From NCBI RefSeq assembly GCF_000001735.4, contig NC_003074.8:7626101-7690100 (forward strand): a DNA stretch of 64,000 nt, read 5' to 3'. Positions 47,245 through 64,000 of the stretch are shown one piece after another. The translations under genes were made by a program, and so were the position numbers. Position 1 is the stretch's first letter. Each line of letters begins with the position of its first letter. This DNA comes from Arabidopsis thaliana. Its lineage: Eukaryota > Streptophyta > Magnoliopsida > Brassicales > Brassicaceae. The notes beneath the pieces were generated by a model. The model did no database searches. It was not told the DNA's origin and saw nothing but the letters and a program-made list of their open reading frames with translations.

Positions 47245-48561
47245 ATGAAGACGATGACGCAATTAAATATTGCGGTTGTGGTTGTAGTGACGGTTCTTAT
47301 TGGAATGTTGAGATCATCGGAGGCTCAACTTCAAATGAATTTCTACGCGAAGAGCTGTCCAAACGCAGAGAAAATCATTTCAGATCATATTCAAAATCAT
47401 ATCCACAATGGTCCTTCTCTTGCAGCTCCTCTCATCCGAATGCACTTCCATGATTGCTTCGTTAGGGTACTACATATATATAAATTAATAATCACACATT
47501 TATATTAACATATTTTATCCTCTTCTTATTTTTAATAAAAATGGTAATTTAGATAGTAAATTTGAGCTAGAGCAGAATATTTGAGATTTATTGCATTTTT
47601 TCAATATTGACACTGAACTTTTGTTTTTTAAGGGATGTGACGGATCGGTGTTGATAAATTCAACATCTGGTAACGCAGAGAGAGATGCACCACCGAATCT
47701 AACACTTAGAGGATTCGGTTTCGTGGAAAGGATTAAGGCTCTTCTTGAAAAAGTGTGTCCTAAGACTGTTTCTTGCGCAGATATCATTGCTTTGACTGCT
47801 AGAGACGCAGTTGTCGCCACCGTAAGTGTTACAAAACTATAAACTCGTGACTTAATTCATTAGTTACGCAAACTAATTGTAATTATAATCTAAAATTTGA
47901 CAGGGAGGTCCTTCATGGAGTGTTCCAACGGGTAGAAGAGACGGTAGGATCTCAAATAAGACGGAGGCTACTAATAACATTCCACCTCCAACGAGTAATT
48001 TCACGACTTTACAACGACTTTTCAAAAACCAAGGCCTTAATCTCAAGGACCTTGTTCTGCTCTCTGGTACGTTCATTAACCCGAAATAGCCAAATTGGTC
48101 TCCGGTAAGTTGTTATAACCGGTTTACTATTTTTTTTTTGTTCAGGGGCTCACACGATTGGCGTCTCACATTGTTCTTCCATGAATACGCGTCTCTACAA
48201 CTTCTCGACTACAGTAAAACAAGATCCATCTCTCGATAGCCAGTATGCAGCAAATCTAAAGGCTAACAAATGTAAGAGCCTTAACGACAATAGCACCATC
48301 CTCGAGATGGATCCCGGTAGTAGCAGAAGCTTCGATCTCAGTTATTATAGGCTTGTCTTGAAGAGGAGAGGCTTGTTTCAGTCTGATTCTGCATTAACAA
48401 CGAACTCAGCGACTTTGAAGGTGATCAACGACTTGGTCAACGGTTCTGAAAAGAAGTTTTTCAAAGCTTTTGCTAAGTCAATGGAGAAGATGGGGAGAGT
48501 TAAAGTGAAGACTGGCTCAGCTGGTGTGATCAGGACACGGTGTTCTGTCGCTGGAAGTTAG
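47245..48561 (+). CDS. PER30: Class III secretory peroxidase PER30
   Basis: Haem peroxidase secreted to the cell wall or apoplast, using hydrogen peroxide to oxidise phenolics. Exons 47245-47466, 47633-47821, 47904-48066 and 48146-48561 follow the classic three-intron pattern of the family and give 329 residues. A signal peptide (about residues 1-27, core LNIAVVVVVTVLIGML) precedes the mature start QLQMNFYAKSCPNAE. The distal haem site is RMHFHDCFVRGCDGS, cut by intron 1 after FVR. SCADIIALTARDAV and GGPSWSVPTGRRDG are the usual substrate-channel segments, and the proximal haem His is in LSGAHTIGVSH. The Cys residues of the four disulfides are in their normal places, including the final IRTRCSVAGS. 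It sits inside the UGT71B cluster but is unrelated to it. Confidence 0.96.
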
Positions 48562-48950
48562 TAAGCTTCAGGGTCGGAATGTGGTGTGTTATGGTCATTG
48601 TTGTTTTGTGTGACTTTCGGAAAAAACAAATGTTGTTAATTTAATTTTGTTGTTGTTTGATTTGTGTTTATGCACCCAAGAATGATGTGTTATGGTTCAA
48701 TTAATATGTGAATCATTTAAATTTACAATAATTCTTATTATTCTGTATCTAGCCTTCTAATCCAAGGTAAATGAGTTTGAAACTGTAAGAAACTTTCGTG
48801 TCTCCTTGAATCCGGCATAGATCTTTTCATTATTTTCATACATTCACTAAGTTCATACACAAAACTTAAAAATACATGTTCACAGAAATAAAACAGCTTG
48901 ACAATGGCCCATTATTCAGGCCCATTATACAACATTTTCAATCGATTTCC
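48562..48950. other. Convergent 3' spacer between PER30 and UGT71B6
   Basis: Holds the 3' UTRs of both convergent genes. Two GGCCCA (reverse site II) motifs at 48907-48912 and 48920-48925 lie near the UGT71B6 stop. No gene. Confidence 0.5.
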
Positions 48951-50390
48951 CTAGCTTTCAGTTTCCGACCAAGCAATATTCTCCGTTACGTCTTGAATAA
49001 ATCTTTTCAAAGCAGTTTCTGACGATCCACCGTCCATTAAAGCCACGTGGCACTTCTCGCTGATCTCATTCACTCTCTTCCTGACGTCACTGTCTTGCTC
49101 CATCAAACATATGATTCCTTTCTCAATCTCCTCCGCCGTCACAATCTCCGACCTCCCCAACAAAAGATCTCCTCGCCAATGCTTCTTGATCTCCACAGCC
49201 AAACCAAGCTCTTCCACCATCTCGAAAGCGTTAAACTTCTGTTCAGCGTAAAGCGGCCAAATCGCCATCGGAACACCAAACCACAAACTCTCCAACGTCG
49301 AATTCCATCCGCCGTGAGAAACAAAACCTCCGATCGCCGGCTTCGCCAATATGGCCACCTGTTCAGCCCATCCGATAACCTTTCCTCTGTTAGCCGTCCG
49401 ATCGAAAAACCCTTCTGGGAGAATCTCCTCTAGGTTTGTGAATTCTCCGGGAGGCTCTCTCAATATATTCGGAGATGCACGACGGAGAGACCAAAGAAAC
49501 CGGTGGCCGCTTCGATCGAGAGCTAATGCGGTTTCTCTCACTTGTTCCTCACTGAACCCTCCCATGCTCCCGAAACAGAGGAACACTACAGATCTTGGCG
49601 GTTGCTCGTCTAGCCACCGTAAAATCTCCGATTGCTTCTTGTCCACGTAATCACAATTTACGTTTTTGAGATGCAACAATGGTCCTACTGGGTAAGCACG
49701 TGGAATGTTACCATTGGAAAGAAACGTCAACGCTTGAGGTTCCAAGTCAGGAACCGTGTTTACCAAAATGCCCTTAGTTTCTCTGAATCTTCTCGCTTGA
49801 GTTACAAAAAAAGTGAGCCACTCTTTTGATTTGAAAATGTAAGGAAGACATTTCAACGGATAAGGACTAGTCAAACTCGGAACCACCAACTCTACGTCAG
49901 AGTCTTCTAATTCGCTCATGTCATAGATATCCTCTGCATCGTACATGAACTGAATGTGAAGCAAAAGTCCAAGAAATCCAGCGTTAGAGGTGTAAAACAA
50001 GTAACTAGGGACGCCAAATTCGTTAGCGACATCGATCATCGACGTGCAGTACATGTCAACAACGAATCCCGCAAGACGAGGCGCGTCTGGTAGAGTGGAA
50101 TCTACGAGTTTAGCAACCGCGTCTCTCACCAGTGGCTTTAGACTTTGGATGTGGGAATCAGTTGCTTTGAGCTCCGTTGGTTGTTGATCTCCTCCGGAGA
50201 TTATTTCGTACCGGAGGCGGTTGTTGGATGTAAGAGAGGTGATCATGGATGTATTTTTAGAACTAAAAGATATGATGATTACGGTGATAGAGAGGTTGTC
50301 GTTTTTATCAACTAGTTGCTCCGCCATCTCTACCGTCGCCATGAGATGACTAATTGCCGGAGAGGGAATGAATACTAGCTCTATTTTCAT
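48951..50390 (-). CDS. UGT71B6: Abscisic acid UDP-glucosyltransferase UGT71B6
   Basis: Glucosylates abscisic acid to its glucose ester, lowering active hormone; reported to act together with UGT71B7 and UGT71B8. Single exon, 479 residues when begun at [15 protein letters not shown] (50390). An in-frame ATG at 50564 would add 58 residues with no similarity to the family, so the inner start is chosen. His15 is present, as is the partner Asp in [11 protein letters not shown]. The PSPG box (residues 341-384) is atypical: it begins WAEQ where the family has WAPQ, and the normally near-invariant HCGWNS reads HGGWNS. The rest ([21 protein letters not shown]) is normal. It is the promoter-distal member of a minus-strand trio with UGT71B7 and UGT71B8. 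Confidence 0.96.
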
Positions 50391-50826
50391 TTCTTTTATT
50401 CTCTCTACTTGTTTTCCCAAGTGCTTTAGGAGTTCATTACAAAGATAAATAAAGGCGATAATAGGATAAGCTTTGTTATATATCAAAATGTGAATTGATG
50501 TTATGTCTTTGAAGTCATTTTTGACTTGTTCGCTTCTTTTTTCTACTTTGTTGTCGATATTCAAGTCCTTCCATGGTTAGAGATAGACATTTTTTTCCAT
50601 TCAACTTTAGAAATTTATGGACCGTTTAGTTTCAATCTTCATGTTACCTATCATTGAGACATATCATTCAAAATTTGAATAGTTTCTTTGTTTATAAAGA
50701 CAGCTTTCATTACAACCATTTATTTTTATTATCTTGTTACCTCAATCTAGTAAATGAGGTTCTGTTTTAAAGTACAAGAACAAAGATATCACTTTGTCTA
50801 ATATGATATTTTAAACTTTGGGCCTA
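50391..50826. other. Spacer between UGT71B7 and UGT71B6
   Basis: Contains the UGT71B6 leader and promoter and the UGT71B7 3' UTR. The in-frame 58-codon upstream extension of UGT71B6 occupies 50391-50564. No separate gene. Confidence 0.5.
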
Positions 50827-52314
50827 TCATTTAAGAGCTACATGCTCAAATTCCTTATCTAGTGAAACTATATTCTTCGCAACCTCTTCAATAAACTTTT
50901 GCAACGCAGTACGCGACGATCCACCATCCATTAAAGCCACATGGCATTTCTCGCTCATATCCTTCACTCTTTTCCTCACGTCACTATCTTGTTCCATTAG
51001 ACACATGATTGCTTTCTCTATCTCCTCCGCTGTCACAGTAGCCGTCGGTAATCCCGCCAAATGTTCACCTCGCCAATACTTCCTTATCTCCACCGCCAAT
51101 CCAAGCTCCTCCACCATTAAGAAAGCATTGAACTTCTGCTCTGCGTATAACGGCCATGCAGCTGTTGGAACACCAAACCAAAGACTCTCTAGCGTAGAAT
51201 TCCACCCGCAATGAGTTACGAAACCTCCTATAGCCGGATTCGCAAGAACGGCTACTTGTGGAGCCCATCCAATCACTTTACCTATATCTTTCGTTCGATC
51301 AAAGAATCCTTCCGGGAGAACTTCCTCTAGATTAGTAAACTCTCCTGGAAGTTCTTTGAATATATTCGGAGATGCGCGACGAAGAGACCAGAGAAACCGG
51401 TGCCCACTTCGCTCTAACGCGATTGCGATCTCTCTTACTTGTTCCTCACCGAAGCCTCCCATGCTCCCAAAGCAGAGAAACACAACCGAACTTGGTGGTT
51501 GCTGATCCAACCACCGTATAATCTCCAACCGTTTCTCGTCCTTAGAATCATCACGTTGGTTCTCAAGATGCAACAATGGTCCAACAGGATAAACAGGAGG
51601 AGTATCACTACTAGAAAGAAACTTTAACACATAAGGTTCAAGCTCAGCAACAGTATTTACCAAAATACCTTTCATCTCCCTAAACTTTCTCGCTTGGTTT
51701 ACAAACACCGGGAGCCACATATTAGCTGCCAGAGCGTGAGGAAGACACTTCACCGGATAAGGACGACTCAAACTCGGAAAGTTCAACACAGCTTCCGAGT
51801 CTGCATAATCATTTTCACTAACATCGTACTTGTTCTCATCGCACAACATTTGAACATGATATGTAACTGAGAGAATCCCGGCACTGGAGGTGTAAAACAT
51901 ATAACTCGGGAAACCAAACTCGTTCGCTACATCTACCATCGAAGTGCAAAACATGTCTAGAACAAAGCCAGCGATCTTCGGCGAGTCCGGTTTAGACGAA
52001 TAGTCTTCAAGGAGTTTTGCAACGGTGCTTCTCACCTTTGGTTCTTGGTTCTTCATATGGATTTCAATTGTCGTCATCTCGATGGTTGGTTGATCTACGG
52101 CGGAGATAACTTCGTAGCGGAGGCGGTTGTTGGATGAGGCGGAGAGGGCTGCGATGTAATCGGAAGCACCGACTTCGCCTTCGGAAATGAAAGGAAGGAT
52201 GATAACGGAGATAGAGAGACGAGTTTCACGGTCCACTAGTAGCTTTGCCATTTCTACCGTTGATCGGAGATGACCGATTCCGGGATAGGGGATGAAAACA
52301 AGCTCAAATTTCAT
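50827..52314 (-). CDS. UGT71B7: UDP-glucosyltransferase UGT71B7
   Basis: Close paralogue of UGT71B6 and UGT71B8, and implicated with them in abscisic acid glucosylation. Single exon, 495 residues, the longest of the set because of a C-terminal extension ([14 protein letters not shown]). His15 is in FIPYPGIGH and the partner Asp in [27 protein letters not shown] is followed by a complete PSPG box at 350-393 ([34 protein letters not shown]). Unlike UGT71B6 it keeps the Pro and Cys of that box. No intron or damage is visible. Confidence 0.96.
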
Positions 52315-52630
52315 GTTAGTCCTTCTTCTAATCTCGGGGAGAAGACAAGCTCCTGTTTCTTGTTTTTGACTGAATCTGCGAAGCGATAACGCTCGCTAGT
52401 GGTAATAAGCACGTAACTGTTTCCGTGTTTCGGCTTCATTCATTTACCTCTGTTTGTTGGGCCGATTGATTAAGGCCCATTAGAAAATATTTTAGTCCTT
52501 TTCGGCATCTCCTTTGATAACAAAACTGATGAGGAACAATAATTTTCTTTTCTTTTTTGTCAAAACAATAACAATTTCCCCCCCCTCAAATAGTATTAAT
52601 GATAAGATTAAGGTATCAAAGATCCCTTAC
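52315..52630. other. Spacer upstream of UGT71B7
   Basis: Promoter and leader of UGT71B7. Contains TGGGCC at 52459-52464 and GGCCCA at 52475-52480, plus a C-run at 52579-52586. No gene. Confidence 0.5.
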
Positions 52631-53168
52631 GGGAGAACTTCTTCGATATTCATAGACTCTTTTTGAGATTCTTTAAAAATATTCGAAGATGCTCGACGAA
52701 GAGACCACAAAAAACGGTGGCTGCTTCGATCTAACGCTTTGGCGATTTCTCTTGCTTGTTCCCCACGAAAGCCTCCCATGCTCCCAAAGCAGAGGAACAC
52801 TACTGACCTAGGTGGTTGCTCGTCCAGTCACCCTCTCGTCCTTTGAGTCACCAACTCCAACTCCGTTTTCGAGTTGCAACAATGGTGCTGGATAAGCAGG
52901 AGGAGTATCACCACTTGATAAAAACTTTATTTACCAAAATACCACTCATCTCTCTGAATTTTCTAGCTTGATTTACAAACGTCGGGAGCCATTGTTTAGA
53001 TGCGTAAGCGTGGGGAAGGCACTTCACCGGAAAATGACGAGTCAAACTCGGTACGTCCAACACAGCTTCGGAGTCTTCATAATCACTTTAACTAACATCG
53101 TATTCGTTCTCATCGTACAACATTTGGATGTGAACTTTAAGTGCTAAAACCCCCGCACTCGACGTGGT
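52631..53168 (-). pseudogene. Decayed UGT71B copy between UGT71B7 and UGT71B8
   Basis: On the minus strand this matches the middle of UGT71B7/UGT71B8, about residues 140-340. Recognisable pieces, in order, are a TSSAGVLALKVHIQMLYDEN-like start, [71 protein letters not shown] and [19 protein letters not shown], ending at EEVLP followed directly by a stop. The whole N-terminal third with the catalytic His and the whole PSPG box are missing. There is an in-frame stop in the SEN segment, and the stretch between LVNK and the PAYP part has lost about 15 residues. It cannot make an active enzyme and is a relic of the tandem duplications. Confidence 0.9.
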
Positions 53169-54142
53169 AAAGGTTAGCTTCATATCTTGGGACCTTGGGT
53201 TTAGAGAGATGTATGAGTTTCGTTTGGGAACTTCATAATTTACAAAAGAAAAAAGAAAAAAACAATTGGCAAATATACAATTTATCTATCATCGAAATTA
53301 GTTTTTATAATTTATGAACAAAAATATAGATAAGCATACCATATTCTAAAATAATAAGTACAAGAGAACAAGCATCGATTTCATTTTTTCGGGTATGAAC
53401 TTCTATTTTTTTATTTTTTTTAGAAAAGAAAAATTAAACACTCACAATCATTTGAAACACTCACACATCCACATATATAACACATGAGACATCTGCTAGC
53501 TTTCTAATCCCTTCCTGGACGGTCGGACCTTCTATGACTCGCACGTTGGAGAGCTTTTGAGAAATCACTTTCGCAATGCACATCGTAATCATGTGTCTTC
53601 ATCCCTAAACCTTTATGGCCTTATGGGTGTCTTAAAGATTTAGGGATGAAGATGGTCTGTTTAATCTTATCTTCAACGTTTGAATCCTGACGATTTAAAA
53701 AACCACGTGGTTACGTAAATTTTGCACGAACATACAGTTGGTAGGAGGGGGAGTATTTGAGATTTATAATGTCTATAATTTCGGATTTTAAAGATGTATC
53801 TTTATTTGAATTATGAATATATATATATATGTGGTGAAACCAAATTACATAATTTATTATTAGTTTATGTGCTTTGACTGAATTAAGATTTAGTTTTAAA
53901 TAACTACAATCAATCAGCTACAGTCTCATTTTAAGTATATAATGTTTTACAACCAATAATGAACAGATTGATATTGAAAAACTCTTTTACAAACTTTAGA
54001 AATATTATTTTTCTCATGATCACTCAAAAGATAGAACACACGTAAATAGAACACATGCAAATTATCATATCTAGTGATAAACTGATAATATATAAAAGGG
54101 ACACAACATTCAAGAGCGTTGCATGCTCCGGTTTAGCTATTC
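53169..54142. other. Spacer between the UGT71B relic and UGT71B8
   Basis: AT-rich, with the near-perfect hairpin listed below and a short minus-strand open stretch (about 53478-53605) reading KVISQKLSNVRVIEGPTVQE that I cannot assign. No supported gene. Confidence 0.5.
53597..53651. repeat. Near-perfect 18-bp inverted repeat (55-nt hairpin)
   Basis: CTTCATCCCTAAACCTTT (53597-53614) pairs with AAAGATTTAGGGATGAAG (53634-53651) at 17 of 18 positions, with the odd position a possible G-T or C-A mismatch depending on strand, across a 19-base loop. Confidence 0.8.
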
Positions 54143-55585
54143 TCAAGCAATATACTTCGTAACGTCTTGAATAAATAATTTCAAAGCAGATTGAGACGAG
54201 CCACCATCCTTTAAAGCCATGTGACATTTCTTACTCATCTCCTTCACTCTATTCCTCACGTCACTATCTTGCTCCATCAAACATCTGATTCCTCTCTCTA
54301 TCTCCTCTGCCGTCACTATGACCGTCGCCGTTCCCACCAACTGATCGCCTCGCCAATACTTTCTTATCTTCACTGCCAAACCAAGCTCCTCCACCATCAC
54401 GAAAGCATTAAACTTCTGCTCAGCGTATAACGGCCATGGCGCTATAGGAACACCGAACCAAAGACTCTCGAGTATCGAGTTCCACCCGCAATGAGTAACA
54501 AAACCTCCGATTGCTGGCTTAGCCAGCACGGCTACTTGTGGAGCCCATCCGATCACCTTTCCTTTATCCTTTGTCCGATCAAAGAATCCTTCCGGGAGAA
54601 TTTCTTCAAGATTCTTGAATTCTCCGGGAAGTTCCTTATCTATATCTCGAGATGCACGGCGAAGAGACCACAAGAAGCGGTGACCACTTCTCTCAAGTGC
54701 AATGGCCATTTCTCTTGCTTGTTCCTCGTTAAAGCCTCCTATGCTTCCAAAGCAGAGGAACACTACCGATTTAGGTGGTTGTTCATCTAACCACCGTAAA
54801 ATGTCCGAACCCTTCTCGTCTTTAGAACCGTCAACATGGTTCTCGAGATGCAACAATGGTCCCACTGGATAAGCACGAGGAGTATCACCACTAGAGTGAA
54901 GAGACTCCAACGCATAAGGTTCAAGCTCAGCAAAAGTATTTACCAAAATACCTTTCATCTCTCTGAATCTTCTACCTTGATTTAGATACATAGGAAGCCA
55001 CTCTTTCGTTGCCAAACCATAAGGAAGACACTTCACCGGATAAGGACAAGTCAAACTCGGAACATCCAACACAACTTCCGAGTCTTCAAAATCAGTTTCA
55101 CTGACACTGTACTCCTTCTTATCAAACAACATCTGAATATGTAACCCAAGAGCAAGAATCCCAACGTTTGACGTGTAAAACAAGTAACACGGAACACTAA
55201 CCTCATTAGCCACGTCTATCACCGAGATACAAAACATGTCAACAACTAAACCAGCGAGCCTCGGCGAGTCCGGCCGCCTTGAGTAGTCATCAACGAGTTT
55301 TGCAACGGTACGTTTCACCATCGGGATGTGGTTATCGACATGTAACCCGACGGTTGGTTGATCTCCGTCCGAGATCACTTCATAGTGAAGGCGGTCGTTG
55401 GATGCGGCGGAAAGAGCTGAGATATAAGCGGAAGCACTGACGTCGTCTCCGGAAAGAAGAGGAAGGATGATAATGGAGATAGAGAGGCGAGTTTCTTGCT
55501 CCACTAGTAGCTTAGCCATCTCGGCGGTTGATTTGAGATGACCAAGTATAGGAAATGGTACGAAGACAAGCGCAAATTTGTTCAT
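54143..55585 (-). CDS. UGT71B8: UDP-glucosyltransferase UGT71B8
   Basis: Third abscisic-acid-linked paralogue. Single exon, 480 residues, starting [16 protein letters not shown] with the catalytic His at 16, one later than its relatives because of an extra N-terminal residue. Partner Asp in [11 protein letters not shown]. The donor domain has [16 protein letters not shown] and a full PSPG box at 347-390 ([34 protein letters not shown]). A reverse TATAAA at 55634-55639 lies only about 50 bases before the ATG, so the leader must be very short. Sequence is closest to UGT71B7. Confidence 0.96.
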
Positions 55586-55633
55586 GTTTCTCTCTTCTTC
55601 TTTTTTTTTGGATGCTTTGTTTCGATAGCTTTG

Positions 55634-55639
55634 TTTATA
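55634..55639 (-). promoter_or_regulatory. Probable TATA box of UGT71B8
   Basis: TATAAA on the minus strand, 49 bases before the ATG; if real, the 5' UTR is about 20 bases. Confidence 0.45.
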
Positions 55640-55984
55640 GGAGGAATAACAAGAAAAGAAAAAAAAATCCCCCTTAAATCGATATCGTTTATAAAAAAAA
55701 TCTGCCTAGTTTTCCTCCAATTAGTTAGTTATAAAAATGTTTCATACTATGAGTCACGAAAATCTATTATTTTCTGATTTTCTCATGATGAAAGGGTACG
55801 TACACACGTGAAACATGCAAAGTAGTATGTAGCAGAATCCTAGTCACAGATAACGTTCAAGACCGTTGCATTGATTGCGCTAGTTTCCTAGATATCGTCA
55901 TGCGTGCGATCAATGCGAGACCGAGAGAAAGCCGCTTCACCACACAAAGACGAGTCAAAAAAAAATTAAAATTAAAACTCATTG

Positions 55985-56143
55985 TGGGCTTTTAATAGGG
56001 ACTTATAAAACAGGCCATTTTGTACTTATTGGGCTTTCTTCAAAACAAAACCCTAAACCCAAAAAGAAAAAATAGACGGTGTAGCCGCTGAAAAAACCCT
56101 AATTCCCAAAGCTAATCCGCCGGCGTTTATTTGAGTATATATA
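55985..56143 (+). promoter_or_regulatory. Site II plus telo-box promoter of the snoRNA gene
   Basis: Two TGGGCT site II motifs (55985-55990, 56030-56035), two AAACCCTAA telo-boxes (56048-56056, 56094-56102) and a TATATATA run (56136-56143), in this order. In Arabidopsis the site II and telo-box pair is the hallmark of ribosomal-protein and polycistronic snoRNA promoters. Transcription would begin near 56165-56175. Confidence 0.8.
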
Positions 56144-56256
56144 CGTTTCGTCTTCTTTCCTCTATTCAGAACAACATATGCTTCTTTCTGCTTAATAATT
56201 TCAATGAGTCTAGGGTTTTGTTATCAAAGTTTTCGTTTTTTTCTGGGGCGTAGAAA

Positions 56257-56358
56257 GGGTTTATGGTGATGAAACGAATATTTCGTGGACTAGAGTTTCA
56301 GATCTGGGCTCTTCACCCAGAATTTGAAGAAACAACCCTTGGCTGTCTGAGTAAATCC
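56257..56358 (+). ncRNA. Box C/D snoRNA candidate A, two guides to 25S rRNA
   Basis: A 102-nt unit with a perfect 7-bp closing stem, GGGTTTA (56257-56263) with TAAATCC (56352-56358), one pair being G-U. C box GTGATGA is at 56266-56272 and D box CTGA at 56347-56350. An internal D' (CAGA, 56299-56302) is present. The 11-nt element 56336-56346 just before D is complementary to ACAGCCAAGGG of 25S rRNA. The 10-nt element 56287-56296 before D' is complementary to ACTCTAGTCC, some 60 bases further along the same rRNA. By the D+5 rule the predicted 2'-O-methylated bases are the first C after ACAG and the U of ACU. rRNA sequences are from memory. Confidence 0.88.
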
Positions 56359-56408
56359 TTTTTCGCCCACTATAATGAAAGTTTTTGTTTTGGTGTTCCC
56401 TTTGAATT

Positions 56409-56495
56409 GCCTATGATGATAAAAACAATTATCTTAGCGGATTTCAGTGAGGTTTTTTTAAAATCAATGATCTGAATTGTTACACACACTGAGGC
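56409..56495 (+). ncRNA. Box C/D snoRNA candidate B, guide to 25S rRNA
   Basis: C box ATGATGA at 56413-56419, D box CTGA at 56489-56492, closed by a 3-bp GCC/GGC stem (56409-56411 with 56493-56495). The element 56477-56487 before D is an 11-nt complement of GTGTGTAACAA, a strongly conserved 25S/28S stretch followed in rRNA by CTCACCTGCC. The D+5 rule points to the second U of GUGUGU. A second CTGA at 56472-56475 lies inside and could be read as D instead, but only the outer one gives a stem and an rRNA match. About 50 bases separate it from candidate A. Confidence 0.83.
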
Positions 56496-56538
56496 TTTAT
56501 TAGTTTGATTTGTTTTTGTTTATTGGGGAAATTTGGTT

Positions 56539-56649
56539 TGCGATGATGATAAAATAGCACGAAGGTGCGTGAAGGGCAGTGGACAAAGCAATGAAAATTT
56601 GTTTTGCCGTGAGCTCTCTTTAATAAACGACTTCTCCTTCCACTGAGCA
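56539..56649 (+). ncRNA. Box C/D snoRNA candidate C, guide to 18S rRNA 3' region
   Basis: C box ATGATGA at 56543-56549, D box CTGA at 56643-56646, closed by a 3-bp TGC/GCA stem (56539-56541 with 56647-56649). The 15-nt element 56627-56641 before D is a perfect complement of GGAAGGAGAAGTCGT near the 3' end of plant 18S rRNA, just before AACAAGGTTTCC. The D+5 rule points to the second A of GGAAGG. The 15-bp duplex is the longest of the three. It lies about 45 bases after candidate B, the usual spacing in plant snoRNA clusters. Confidence 0.83.
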
Positions 56650-58751
56650 TTTTTTAGATCTTCCCTAAATCTTTGTGTTTGTTATTATTGTTGTTAATAA
56701 TGAATGGCGTCTTTTACCAATTCTGAAGGATTAAATATGGTTCCTTTAGGTATAATGGCATTGACGCAATATTGATTGTGGTATATCCTGATCATTTGGC
56801 TTTTTTTTCTATGTTATTTGATCCTGGAAATGCCTCACACATTTGTTCTATCTTCTTTTTCATTATTTACGAATTGGGTTTCCTCTGAATTTACGATGAG
56901 GTTTGTTGGTTGAATATAAAGTTGTTGGAGCGAGATGGATTGTTTGGAGTGCAATGATGTTTTCTTTTCTCAGATTTGGTTTTTCTAACTGAAATTGATG
57001 ATTGTTCTGTTTTATTATTCGATTAAGACCGTCTCCAATATTAATCCCTATTTTTTCGTTGGAGATGCTCTTGCTTCTTCCTGTTTTAGTTGTCAAAAGT
57101 CTTATGATTGTTAATCATTTGATTAAAGACATTCGCATACAATTCTGTTATCAATAATGAGAAGGAAAATGTGATGATTTAACATACGGAACAATTATGG
57201 TTGCTGTCATTACTTATACGAGTTCGATGTTGAGAATTGTTGGTGGATAATTTGTGTTGCCTTCTTGATTTCCTGCGTTGAAACAAAAAGGTTGCCACAT
57301 TTTGCTGGATGAAGAATTGTTGGTTCTGTGTGATGTTGTTTATGTGATCTTCAGGTGTGATCTTACATGAGAGACTAAAAAGAGAGCAACGGGTTTGGTT
57401 TGAGTTTGTTTAGGTCAAACCATCAGAGAGACATTACGAGATATCGTATCATACCCTTGGGCCAATTCTGCAATATGCGTTGGAGTTTTGTTAATCTTGA
57501 TCATACCTTTCATATGCCTATTATCGGCTTTATTGACTTAGTTGTATCACTTGGTCCTATACTCCTTGTTCCCTTTCTCTGATAAGTCTATGACTTCGCT
57601 GTTATGATCATTGCGTTTGGTTTTTGTCGTCCCTGTTTGTAAATTTGCCAAGATTGAAAATGTAATTTCGAAGAACCAAAATTGTATCACAAGGCAAATA
57701 TTTTATATACTTCTAACTCTCCCAAAATATCGAGCATTATCTTAATATCTTTACTATGTCAACTTTTGGCAAAACTTTATTAGAAATCTGAAAATAAAAC
57801 TCACAAGATTAATTATTTTTCAGAAAAGAGAAACTAATATATAGGACTTACCTATATTAATTGTTTAGAGATATTCATACTCCATTTACTTGAACTTTTT
57901 TATTAAGTGTTCAGATTATGTTCCATCTCTTGTATTTTATTGCTTTTTTCTCTACACATAAGAACCTTTCAGTTTCCATTTATGAAGATTTATAAAATGG
58001 TACAGATACTTTAGTAAAATGTTGTATCATTATATGGAGAGATGTACAAATTTATATAGAGATAATATTCAGTAATTTAATTTAGACAGATCATACAAAT
58101 GTTAATAACAAAAAAGAAAAAGAAAAAAGACAAAACTGGAATAGAATTAGAGAACTAAATACCTCTAATTAAACCGGATTTGATGGTAGTATACAAAACC
58201 AAAATCTTGACATTTTGTTAATCCTTCGAATACATAAGGGCAAAATAGTAAAATACCAGCTCTGTTTTTACTTATTTTCTTTCTTAAAAGAAATATATAA
58301 ATACGAAGGATCGATCCTTAAATTGTTTCAGCTTTCTTTTTGTTTTCATTTTCCGGTAATATCATTTTCGTCCGACTTGTTTTCTCCTCCTTGCCGTTAA
58401 GTTCCATTGAAGAAGAAGAAGAAGAAGGTGTGATTCAACGATAAACCTAGCGAGAAAACGAACCGCATAAAATCGCCATTGTAGGTTTTCGATTTTCTCA
58501 GTCTTACATAGCTCGAAATTGATGTATAACTGGTTTTTATTCATGCTCGATTCTAGAGATTTTTAGAAAATCCTATTCCAGTGAGAATCTAGAGATTTCC
58601 ATTTTGAAGCGTTTCTTCTGTTTCGTATGTAGGAACGAGACGGTGGTGTTAATCTATGGTTATGGAGGTTTGCTTGACTTTTTGAGGTTGGCTTGACTTT
58701 TGAAGTTTTGATCTGAAGAAAAGAGGTTTCGTTGTAATTGGTTTATACATC
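56650..58751. other. Rest of the snoRNA transcription unit and C3H40 promoter/leader
   Basis: 56650-57650 looks transcribed-type (less AT-rich, possible splice acceptor ttcag|g at 57350-57355) but has no convincing ORF. It contains an inverted pair, gtctccaa near 57031 and ttggagatgctc at 57059. From about 57700 the DNA is AT-rich until the C3H40 leader, which holds a (gaa)n run at 58409-58427 and probably begins near 58330. Confidence 0.45.
57163..57274 (+). ncRNA. Weak fourth box C/D snoRNA candidate D
   Basis: C box GTGATGA at 57171-57177, D-like box TTGA at 57265-57268 and a 6-bp stem AGGAAA (57163-57168) with TTTCCT (57269-57274). The D box is not canonical and I could not match the segment upstream of it to rRNA, so it is only a candidate. 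Confidence 0.25.
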
Positions 58752-61700
58752 ATGTCTGGGTCGAGTATGTATAAGACGAAGCTTTGTATTCTGTTCAATA
58801 AGACTGGTGATTGTTCGAGGCCGAATTGTACTTTTGCTCATGGAAATGCTGAGCTTCGTCGTCCTGGCGAATCTTCTTTTACAGGTAATGTTTTCGTTTA
58901 TGCATTTGAATAGGCTATTTATTCTGGTTTAAGTTTGTTAATGGTGGAAGGATTGATGAATTTATGAGTGCTTCTTTTTATTAGAGTAAAATAGAAAAGT
59001 TTTTATTTAATTAAGTCTCTTTTGCTTAGACTTTGCAAGATTTTTATATTATACTTTGATGATTCTGTGAAGTATTTTTCTTCTGAAGTTTTGTGGTTCA
59101 ATGCATTTGCTTTGTGAGTATTATTCCATATTTTATGAGATTGTGTAAAACGTTTCAGCCTACAGTGTTCTGTTTGATAAACACATGGTAATGGTATCAG
59201 TATTATACTTTGCTTTGGATTTGGTTTTCTCCATATCAACTTTTACTGACTAGTTTTGTCCTGCGGAATCATTCTGGAATATGCAGAAAGATAGCTACTC
59301 ACAGGCTTAGTATTATTTTTTATCCGGGAATGGAATCTACTGGTCTTTCTGGCTGCAATTTATATTGGTTTTCTTATTGGAGTGGAATCTGCTGGGTTTT
59401 TTTGTGGTGAAATTTATCTTGGTTTTCTTATTGCTCTTGAAAGCACATTCTTTATGAAGAAAATCTATCATGGGTTTTGCGGGGTACTTATTCTTCGACA
59501 ACTATGGTTTTCAGACTCCCGAGATTTGGTTGCAAGCAATGCTTGTTATTAGGATTTATCAATGCCTGTTGTTATTACTTCTGGCATTTTCATACTTCCA
59601 GTTATGTATGTGGAGCACGTGGTATTTTCTGTGATTATTTATATCTTCAATGGTCTTTCAAGCGGTTTCTTGGATCAAGAAATATGCAGTTTATGGGGGT
59701 TTGATTGTCAGTATATCAAATTTGGTGGATTTTGATTGTGTAATTAAATGGAACTTCAAGATTGGTTCTTATTTTCTCTCGTCCAACATAATCTGAAGCC
59801 TTCTCAACCTATGATTTATCAATGAGATTCAGTGACTCCACTTATTTAGTACCCAATTGTGGTTTCTTTCCAACTGCTGGTAAGAAGAGGACATTATATT
59901 GTGGTCTCTTTGAACTGGGAAGTAATCACCATTACGTTTTTCTTTATGTTACTAGTAGTTTTCTGTGATCTTATCCAAGTGTTGTTGACTGGCATGATTC
60001 TGATTGTTTGAAATGGAGTTCACATCTGTAGCACAAGTATGCTTTACTGCAAAGTCTGTTTCGTCTACTGCAGGAAGACGTCACAATATGGATAGTGACT
60101 TAAGAGATAGACGTCACAATATGGATAGTGACTTAAGAGATAGACTTGGTAGACAGTTTTCTCCAGAGCGGAGACCTTCCTTAGACAGAAGTGGAAGACG
60201 GGTACAAAGGTTTAGTGGTAAGATCTACAGCTTTGGGTTTATGGAGTTCTGTTGTCGATTAGGCAGAGTCAAAAGTCTCTGTCAACTGTTTGTTCTGTAT
60301 TTCTTTCTTTTCTTATTACCGACGGAATTCAAATTTGCAGGACATGACAATTCTATGCCATTTGAGAATCGAAGGTATCTTCTCCCCTCGGTTTTGCTTA
60401 TGCTCATGCTATGTGAAATTTCAGTGGTAATTTGATGGCCATGCTTTAACAATGCGGCTTTATATTTCTTATTATCACAGAGATAAAGACTACAGGGAGA
60501 ACCGTAGATTTGATGAACGACGTGATTATGCTGGTGGTTTGAAAGTTGGGAATAGGATTGAAGACAGGGCAGAAGATGGAAGAAATAAGTTTCATGGTTA
60601 CAATAATGTTCTGGAAGAGCAGGTTCGAAACTTTCATTTTCTTGGTTGGGTGTTAGTTGAGGACGTGATTTCGCTTTATCTTAATCTAATGTTTAGTGGA
60701 TGTAAACATTTGTAAAGATGTTGCTAAAGGACCCAAGTCCAATTTGTCTATATGCAGTTAAAAGATGTAGAGATGGATGTTAAGATGCTAACTGATGACA
60801 AACTACGATTGGAGGTAAATTTCTCCATTCCACAATTGATTTGATTGCATCGTAAATACGAGTTAATTGACAAATTTCTTTTGTCCAAAGGCGTCCGTTG
60901 AAAGGAAGGCACATGAAGTAGACATTCTTACTTCTAGGATCCAGGAGCTTGAGACCCAGTTGGATAGAGAGAAAGATGAATGTAGGAGGTAATGACTAAT
61001 TCCTTTTTGATGTTTGCTTGAAATTAATTATGATGCGATATACTTGAAGAAACTTTATTTGGCAAATCTGGGACTTGATCTTCTGGTGACAAGTATTGTT
61101 CAATCCTTTTGTGTGTCAGGATTACTTCAAGCTCGAAGAAATTTGTGAAAGAATATAACCGTTTCTTGCGGGCACAAGATGATCTAAAGAGGCAAGGCAT
61201 TTATCTCTATTTCTAATTGCTTCTTATTTAAGAATGCAAAAATTCATTCAATAACACAATGCCAAACCTATAGGTCAGAAGCCCGTCTTCAGAAATTGGG
61301 AAACCAACTTAGTACGTATCTTGCTGGAAGTGAAGGCAATAATAGGGATGTAGGCCTGGATATTGTGAGCGATGAAGAGACTAATGGTCGGAATTTGAGA
61401 ACTGCTTGTGATCCACATAACGAGTTGCAGAATACTTCTTCACTGTCCAGGAAAAAGCATTATGTGGATCAATATACTACGAAAGAACCTGTTGAAGATG
61501 GTAAACTTATCTATACTATTAGATTTATGTCTAAACTAAAAATCAGTTCATACACACGTTATGAACCTTCTCCATCTGTTTTAGGCTTGATAGGGAGAGG
61601 TGAAGAAGAGAAGGTGGAGAATGAGAAGAAGAGACCACCTTGTTGGAATATGCTTTCTTCAAAATCATATTCTGAAGAAGAAAGTGGAGCGTGGAACGAT

Positions 61701-62260
61701 GAAGACACAATTAACAGGTCCTCGTCAAAGGAAGACAATTGGAAAAGAAGAAGGTTCTCTATTGGCACCTCAGCTACCGATAAGGTACATCATCTTTCTT
61801 CTTCTGCAGAAATGGTGTTCACTTGAAGCAGATCGACGTTGGGGATCATGTTAATTCTTAGTGCTTTTGATGATCTTTCACGTTGTAGATGTGTTTTTGT
61901 TAAAAGCCGAGATAATAGACTTGGTTACATGGTTACGGTGCTTCAGGTTATATTGTCTACGAGTATGGCAGCTCGGGAATTTGATGATGTTGCAGAATCT
62001 GAGGAAGAGAATCCCGAAGCAGCCAACGGCTCTCCTCTCATATCTCTTCCTCCACCCCCACCTTTCAGAGATGCCCATGTTCAGGTAAGCACGAGTAGAT
62101 TCTCGAAAACTTATGTTGGTAAACTAAATTTGCCAAAAAGTAAGTACTCGGAGATGATGATCCTCACGAATCTCGTGTGCTTTGTGTTCAGAGAGACGAG
62201 GATGATGTAAACGGTGATGTGATGGAACAGAAGAAAGCCTATGACGATGATTCCGTCTGA
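58752..62260 (+). CDS. C3H40: CCCH zinc-finger coiled-coil protein C3H40
   Basis: Likely nuclear RNA-binding protein, called zinc finger CCCH domain-containing protein 40. Eleven exons: 58752-58884, 60074-60217, 60341-60374, 60481-60622, 60758-60814, 60891-60988, 61120-61191, 61274-61500, 61585-61784, 61947-62084 and 62192-62260. They sum to 437 residues. One finger near residues 12-30 (C-X8-C-X4-C-X3-H: CILFNKTGDCSRPNCTFAH) is followed by an Arg/Asp/Ser-rich region with an exact 11-residue duplication RRHNMDSDLRD. A long charged coiled coil follows (LKDVEMDVKMLTDDKLRLEA to RLQKLGNQL, about residues 170-250), then an acidic tail with PPPPP near the end. Intron 7 uses a GC donor (AG|GCAAG at 61192). 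Its biological role is not clear from the sequence. Confidence 0.93.
60076..60141 (+). repeat. Exact 33-bp in-frame tandem duplication in C3H40 exon 2
   Basis: Copies 60076-60108 and 60109-60141 are identical, encoding RRHNMDSDLRD twice. Perfect identity implies a very recent duplication or ongoing homogenisation. Confidence 0.95.
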
Positions 62261-62528
62261 TCAAGACTTTGAACATTAAAAAGTAGCCTGTTTGTTAGGT
62301 GCAATATTGACGACCATGATTAGAATCGGTACATGCTTTGTTCATCATCTTTAGATATATATTGAAAAAGAACTAAAGCTTGATCTTCAAACGAAGATGT
62401 CCTTTTATTGTTTCAATGTTGCGTAGAGAAACTAACGCCATACTCTTTATTTCAGTAGTGATTTCCAGTGTAATCACTATATAGGCAAAATTGAAAATTT
62501 CTGTTCTTTTGAAAACAAAAATTATGCT
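62261..62528. other. Convergent 3' spacer between C3H40 and ATXR2
   Basis: Short region with the 3' UTRs of the two converging genes; nothing else seen. Confidence 0.6.
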
Positions 62529-64000
62529 TCAAATTGATGAAGAATCTTCAAGACACTTAGAGCACTTGCAGCTGAAACCATAGTCTGCAAGTAATGCTTG
62601 TCTCTCTTTGTATGGAAGCTCCTCGTCGATATATGAAATCGTCACCTGTTGTTTTACATATGGAACTCAAAAGCAAGCTCTCTTTTCCAAAATATTCAAT
62701 TGCTATTACGATTAAAGAGAAGATGCGTACCTCTTCGTTCTTGCTGATGCGTCTTAATGCAATTATCACTGCTTGTCCGTCTCTGTCCTGCAAAACCCAC
62801 AAGACAAACGAGTTACACTTGGATTCAGTCTGAAAGTGTTGATGAAAAATCTTCGATCCTTAAGATTTGTAGGCCATAAAGAGGACGAAGATGTAAGAAG
62901 GATACCTCTTCTCTTTTGAAGGCTTTTGCATTAGGGCAACAAGAATGGTTCATACAGCTTTGCAGAGGGAAGAAGGCCGTTCCTAAACACAAATACAGAT
63001 GATGTAATAATGTCAAATCTTGGTTACAAGTTACATAACTCCTCTGTTTTATGGTTACAATGTTCCCTTCATTTCTAACCTTGGCAACAGTCCGAGTACT
63101 CATCACCAAGAGCATCTAGAAACGGTCTTGTGATTTCCTCGGTTTCTTCCTATCATAATGAGAATAAGAAACTGGTAAGCGTCGATAGATTTTGGTCAAA
63201 GAACAAACAGGTGGAAAGCATTACTCTGTTCAGACCTTTTCTGCATCAGGAAGATCATCAATATACAAGAAATAGTCCTCTACTGGTGATGCTACCACCA
63301 AGTCTCTGCCAGAGATCAAAGCATATTGTGGGTAAATTCATTGTAAATGTAAGAGTATAAACAGGAGTTGACGACTCTTACAGGTTATTCAGCTCAAACA
63401 TGCCGATGATATTCCCATAGATTTCGAGGGAGAACACTTATCAGCGTCAAGGAATGACCCTCTATGAGTAAAAAATAGAAGTAGGAAACGATGGTACAGA
63501 TAATATATCAAACTGACTAGGGGGGATACGGGCTTCACATTCTTTGTCAAATATGGCTATCTTCAGGAGCTCCAAAGACTGGAGATAAAACAATATTATT
63601 CAGTTGGCAAAACAGTCAGGATTTGAAATTGATGCACTGGCGATTGTGATCTCTACACAAAACACGGCAAGTAAACTCAACCTTCAAATGATATTATACA
63701 ACTGAAACACCTACCGTACACGCAAGGTTCTTTATTTGCATCCTGAAGGCTCCTTCATCAGTAGGATCAACATCATCTGGCAATGCAATGCAGTCCCACC
63801 ACCTACCAAAGAGTTTTAGATAATTTATATGTGGCGTAGGTATATCACCGAAAAGCTTATTAAGTATGATCATGAGGTACCATATGTAATTTGGATCACA
63901 TTCAGAAACACATAGAAAAAAAAAGCAAGTGATTCATTTTCTTCTTCAACAGTCAAGAAATATCTAATGGCAACATCAATGTATACCTTCTTTTGTATCC
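62529..64000 (-). CDS. ATXR2: SET-domain protein ATXR2, 3' part (runs off window)
   Basis: Trithorax-related histone lysine methyltransferase of the SMYD-like class. ATXR2 is reported to deposit H3K36me3 during callus and root formation. C-terminal exons on the minus strand are 63987-64000 and beyond, 63802-63715, 63578-63530, 63436-63382, 63305-63236, 63149-63080, 62982-62906, 62787-62731 and 62645-62529, joining in one frame. Recognisable pieces are RRWWDCIALPDDVDPTDEGA, SLELLKIAIFDKECEALFSL, EIYGNIIGMFELNNLDLVVA and EEITRPFLDALGDEYSDCCQ. The SET core is SCMNHSCCPNAKA (cofactor-binding NHS motif) followed by SYIDEELPY with its conserved Tyr. The post-SET zinc site GFSCKCSKC ends the protein (LEDSSSI). 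The N-terminal half lies outside the window. Confidence 0.92.

Follow-up and report, generated by a model that had tools for sequence, protein, structure and literature searches.

A gene on chromosome 3 of Arabidopsis thaliana, headed by Site II elements, telo-boxes and a TATA box, most likely yields a single precursor that carries four small nucleolar RNAs (snoRNAs), three of the box C/D type and one of the box H/ACA type. The gene lies in a 64,000-nucleotide (nt) stretch of the reference assembly (NC_003074.8, positions 7,626,101 to 7,690,100), referred to here as the window, and coordinates given without a chromosome are positions within it. An Rfam search of the whole window placed all four units (4/4) above the gathering score of their families, and that search returned no match other than these four cluster snoRNAs:

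56257-56358, plus strand: unit 1, box C/D snoRNA snoZ157 (RF00333, 95.4 bits, gathering score 55), with C box at 56266-56272, D' guide at 56286-56297, D' box CAGA at 56299-56302, D guide at 56336-56346, D box CTGA at 56347-56350 and a terminal stem

56407-56497, plus strand: unit 2, box C/D snoRNA snoR11 (RF00349, 98.4 bits, gathering score 50)

56537-56651, plus strand: unit 3, box C/D snoRNA snoZ152 (RF00350, 98.6 bits, gathering score 50), with C box at 56543-56549, D guide at 56627-56641 and D box CTGA at 56643-56646

56716-56844, plus strand: box H/ACA snoRNA snoR80 (RF01224, 117.5 bits, gathering score 45, expectation value 1.2e-19 for the whole window)

Expectation values for the three C/D units range from 2.1e-20 to 2.3e-18. 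The first-pass annotation of this DNA had proposed a polycistronic gene of three same-strand C/D units, considered the combination unlikely to arise by chance and suggested a covariance search. The unit ends that it gave depart from the Rfam limits by 0, 2 and 2 bases at each end, all three units belong by score to curated C/D families of plants, and the expectation values agree with its view of chance. It was right about the kind of gene, but the cluster is mixed, ending in the H/ACA unit snoR80, which had been overlooked.

The three C/D units (3/3) each possess a C box (RUGAUGA) close to the 5' end and a D box (CUGA) close to the 3' end. Unit 1 has a long terminal stem when G-U pairs are allowed, and the stems of units 2 and 3 comprise three Watson-Crick pairs each. 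Folding energy sets unit 1 little apart, its fold being not unusually stable (z -1.07; 29/200 shuffles equally good). The fold of snoR80 is low in energy (z -2.13; 4/200 shuffles equally good), but its lowest-energy form is without a clean two-hairpin shape. An ACA trinucleotide lies at 56839-56841, three bases from the 3' end of snoR80, and the H box of this copy, judged by eye, is a degenerate version (ATATTG) of the consensus ANANNA.

The reading of these units as snoRNAs has to be weighed against the outcome of our own crude C/D scans, which are weaker than the Rfam result and did not pick out all three units. With strict Watson-Crick stems of at least 3 pairs, the scan returned three hits (shuffle mean 0.44, largest 3), namely units 2 and 3 and one unrelated place, and missed unit 1; two C boxes within 320 nt occurred in 1/200 shuffles. 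With G-U pairs tolerated and stems of at least 4 pairs, it returned two hits (shuffle mean 0.75, largest 3, in 100 shuffles), namely unit 1 and that same unrelated place, and missed units 2 and 3. Both the shortness of the C and D boxes and the modest yield of stem-restricted scans taken alone would be expected if C/D-like motifs and stretches resembling ribosomal RNA (rRNA) had arisen by chance in junk DNA beside a glycosyltransferase gene. The probability of such an origin is nevertheless close to nil, given expectation values no greater than 2.3e-18 for each of the four units, the existence of colinear paralogs and a conservation that is specific to the functional elements, as described below.

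The promoter motifs that the first-pass annotation had reported were located at 55985-56143, ahead of the snoRNA units:

55985-55990 and 56030-56035, plus strand: two Site II elements (TGGGCT), from a motif scan

56048-56055 and 56094-56101, plus strand: two telo-boxes (AAACCCTA), from a motif scan

56136-56143, plus strand: TATA box (TATATATA), read from the sequence

Transcription would start about 30 bases downstream of this TATA box. Counted on both strands of the window, TGGGCY occurs 34 times against 22 expected (0/100 shuffles reach 34), and the telo-box occurs seven times against 2.7 expected (2/100 shuffles reach 7). The stretch 56048-56218 accounts for three of these telo-boxes, the third of them (56211-56218) being on the minus strand. 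Since Site II elements and telo-boxes are also present elsewhere in the window, either motif alone is weak evidence. According to PMC4660826, both are enriched in the promoters of plant polycistronic snoRNA genes, and the layout ahead of unit 1, with Site II elements and telo-boxes 5' of several snoRNAs on the same strand, is the one described there.

Further evidence comes from the guides. Pairing was computed against three rRNA fragments that were not drawn from the genome, because the ribosomal DNA stretch of the A. thaliana assembly is masked (9,532 of 9,901 bases are N); a pattern from the start of 18S rRNA had 0 matches in that assembly. Viral and prokaryote contigs scanned with eukaryotic rRNA patterns yielded 0 matches, four stretches that their surrounding letters mark as something other than rRNA, or, with a short pattern, 117 hits. 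All pairings and predicted target bases below are relative to these three fragments. In unit 1, a guide of 12 nt (2 G-U pairs) ends one base before the D' box CAGA, and a second, also of 12 nt, runs into the first base of the D box. Unit 2 has guides of 14 nt (1 G-U pair) and 11 nt, which stop one base short of its D' box, GTGA, and of its D box, respectively. The 15-nt guide of unit 3 likewise stops one base short of D; no D' guide for unit 3 was found within the three fragments. With at least 10 nt of rRNA complementarity directly 5' of a D or D' box as the threshold, five guides of 11-15 nt were thus recognized. The first-pass annotation had listed four, of 11, 10, 11 and 15 nt; the pairing with rRNA that it had seen is there, and it is the number and lengths that change (12, 12, 14, 11 and 15 nt).

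By the fifth-base rule, the bases modified would be, for unit 1, a C (from D) and a U (from D') separated by 56 nt; for unit 2, an A (from D') and a U (from D) separated by 15 nt; and for unit 3, an A that lies 50 nt short of the 18S rRNA 3' end. An 18S length that we take to be 1808 nt would put A1758 at just this distance from the end. The published RiboMeth-seq map (PMC8053127, Table 1) assigns 25S C2366 and U2422, which are 56 nt apart, to SnoR37; 25S A1263 and U1278, which are 15 nt apart, to SnoR22; and 18S A1758 to SnoR23. The same source counts SnoR22 among six RNAs with two guides to sites 11-18 nt apart. Since the D' boxes, degenerate in sequence, had been picked with the published target numbers already known, the three agreements on a D-box base outweigh the two from D'. 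Taken together, the agreements are a check on both the rRNA fragments used and the snoRNA names, and units 1-3 are most likely SnoR37, SnoR22 and SnoR23 in the nomenclature that PMC8053127 uses in its Table 1.

A different naming was adopted at first and then dropped. The Rfam synonyms R10, R11 and R12 had led us to equate the cluster with SnoR10-SnoR11-SnoR12 of PMC8053127. The targets given in that source for SnoR10 (25S U2651/G2652) and SnoR12 (25S A945 and A2127) do not fit the guides of the cluster, and SnoR12.2 sits in the U24.2 cluster, whereas RF00350, with at least three matches, matched only three clusters here. Since the SnoR10 naming was dropped, data on the SALK_092813C (SnoR10.1) mutant are not applied to the window locus.

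Two more clusters with the same order of units are present in A. thaliana, both on chromosome 4 (C4), at 8.460 Mb on the plus strand and at 8.713 Mb on the minus strand. Genome-wide there are at least three matches to RF00333, at least four to RF00349, at least three to RF00350 and at least three to RF01224, and all those found lie in the three clusters. The snoR11/SnoR22 unit of the 8.713 Mb cluster is tandemly duplicated (C4:8712878-8713144). Boxes and guides were defined by box consensus and rRNA pairing, though with the alignment of the paralogs already seen. So defined, the boxes and guides of the three C/D units do not vary between copies at a single base (104/104), while 126 of the 204 remaining bases of these units are identical across copies; the corresponding Fisher p of 2.7e-17 is only indicative, because it counts bases that are not independent and because one C4 cluster is nearly a copy of the other. 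The three window spacers agree with those of C4 in 26-27 of 93-94, 23 of 63 and 39 of 80 aligned columns, a comparison that excludes the additional spacer separating the paired snoR11 units at 8.713 Mb. For the two C4 clusters, the columns in common are 86/95, 63/63 and 69/69. Guides and boxes that diverged while their flanks were kept had been named in the first-pass annotation as grounds for rejecting the gene; the paralogs display the reverse, with elements intact and spacers diverged. The stem that closes unit 1, moreover, has two pairs that differ from C4 on both sides with pairing kept, as judged by eye (TTTA/TAAA in the window, AATA/TATT on C4). Element conservation together with paired stem changes is the trace to be expected of selection on a C/D guide RNA.

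The same comparison bears on the alternative that the function is carried by the C4 clusters and that the copy on chromosome 3 is in decay, with weak expression or partial loss of function. The C4 clusters outscore it in all four families and their units are nearly identical to each other; its snoZ152 differs from both C4 copies in having 19 extra bases (56584-56602) that are absent from them; and its snoR80, which matches the C4 copies in 110 and 111 of 130 columns, has the lowest score of the three (117.5 versus 135.4 and 136 bits). Decay is nonetheless unlikely, for the C/D boxes and rRNA guides are intact to the last base, the two altered pairs of the unit 1 stem still pair, and the promoter motifs are present.

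For the functional polycistron that we favour, the pathway may be pictured as follows. RNA polymerase II would make one precursor from the Site II/telo-box/TATA promoter, and this would be cut into four units that are then trimmed. The C/D units would assemble with fibrillarin and guide 2'-O-methylation, SnoR37 at 25S C2366 and U2422, SnoR22 at 25S A1263 and U1278, and SnoR23 at 18S A1758. H/ACA snoRNAs assemble with dyskerin proteins, and snoR80 presumably guides a pseudouridylation. Transcription and processing of the window copy are predicted from its resemblance to known genes of this type, and its part in rRNA methylation is likewise a prediction.

Several observations concern the surroundings of the three clusters. 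The leader that links the promoter to the first snoRNA (56179-56247) has stray copies at C3:14326431-14326500 and C2:7491781-7491839 (91% and 93% identity). An Rfam scan around these two copies gave no match at the gathering score, and BLAST of the leader found no match in the paralogous C4 snoRNA clusters. At C4:8460531-8460662, on the same strand as the 8.460 Mb cluster and 184 bases 3' of its snoR80, lies MIR4221 (RF03605, 154.2 bits), which possibly forms a snoRNA-microRNA tandem with that cluster; the main text of PMC4660826 does not mention MIR4221 (number 4221).

On the other side of the promoter, a minus-strand open reading frame (ORF) at 54146-55705 stands head-to-head with the window cluster. 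It matches Pfam UDPGT (76.3 bits), in keeping with the UDP-glycosyltransferase neighbour of the first-pass annotation, from which the name UGT71B8 derives. The C4 8.713 Mb cluster also lies head-to-head with a UDP-glycosyltransferase homolog (8713903-8715141), to which the adjoining ORF is 62% identical over 424 aligned residues; the two head-to-head arrangements occupy 54146-56844 and C4:8712500-8715141. Two glycosyltransferase ORFs farther from the cluster, at 50830-52395 and 48954-50576, are slightly closer to that homolog (65% and 66%), so that the window holds a tandem array, and its member nearest to the snoRNAs is not the one most similar to the C4 gene. A comparison of 63 window ORFs (at least 60 amino acids, 48001-64000) with 9.9 kb of sequence surrounding the cluster at C4 8.460 Mb gave no match save for an ORF that overlaps the snoRNA units. 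Because the homolog stands at 8.713 Mb, with no such ORF match at 8.460 Mb, and because the C4 spacers are near-identical, the locus on chromosome 3 and the one at C4 8.713 Mb probably form an old segmental pair, of which the cluster at 8.460 Mb is probably a later copy, made from the 8.713 Mb member. A bolder proposal is that the divergent snoRNA and UDP-glycosyltransferase genes (C3 7.68 Mb, C4 8.71 Mb) share a conserved bidirectional promoter and that the 8.46 Mb copy is likewise an unreported snoRNA-MIR4221 polycistron. We consider this very unlikely; if true, such a promoter would couple a glycosyltransferase to the control of ribosome biogenesis.

The members of the cluster are known already, to judge from the Rfam families and from the target map in print. 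Units 1-3 match RF00333, RF00349 and RF00350 over their full length above the curated score, and they resemble SnoR37, SnoR22 and SnoR23, as listed in the target table, in the bases and spacing of their implied targets. snoR80 is a full-length match to RF01224 (117.5 bits) and comes behind the C/D genes in each of the three clusters; no paper mentioning it together with Arabidopsis was found, in a search that did not cover the original cluster papers. PMC5122169 describes a 'cluster 20', snoR22a-snoR23-snoR22b, and equates it with A. thaliana U32.2-U27.2-U80.2. Compared by name only, U32.2-U27.2-U80.2 is not the window cluster. There is likeness to cluster 20 in that snoR22 stands beside snoR23, and at C4 8.71 Mb two snoR11/SnoR22 units stand next to snoZ152/SnoR23. 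The window cluster differs from it in having one snoR22, which lies between SnoR37 and SnoR23, and in ending with an H/ACA gene.

With families, promoter kind and target sites already public, the biological addition is small. The work illustrates that snoRNA genes can be recognized from raw sequence, and their ends placed to two bases or better, in DNA where an annotation confined to proteins would show only junk ORFs. For A. thaliana itself, the three colinear copies constitute a handy small system in which the dose of snoRNA variants could be related to the methylation of five rRNA sites.
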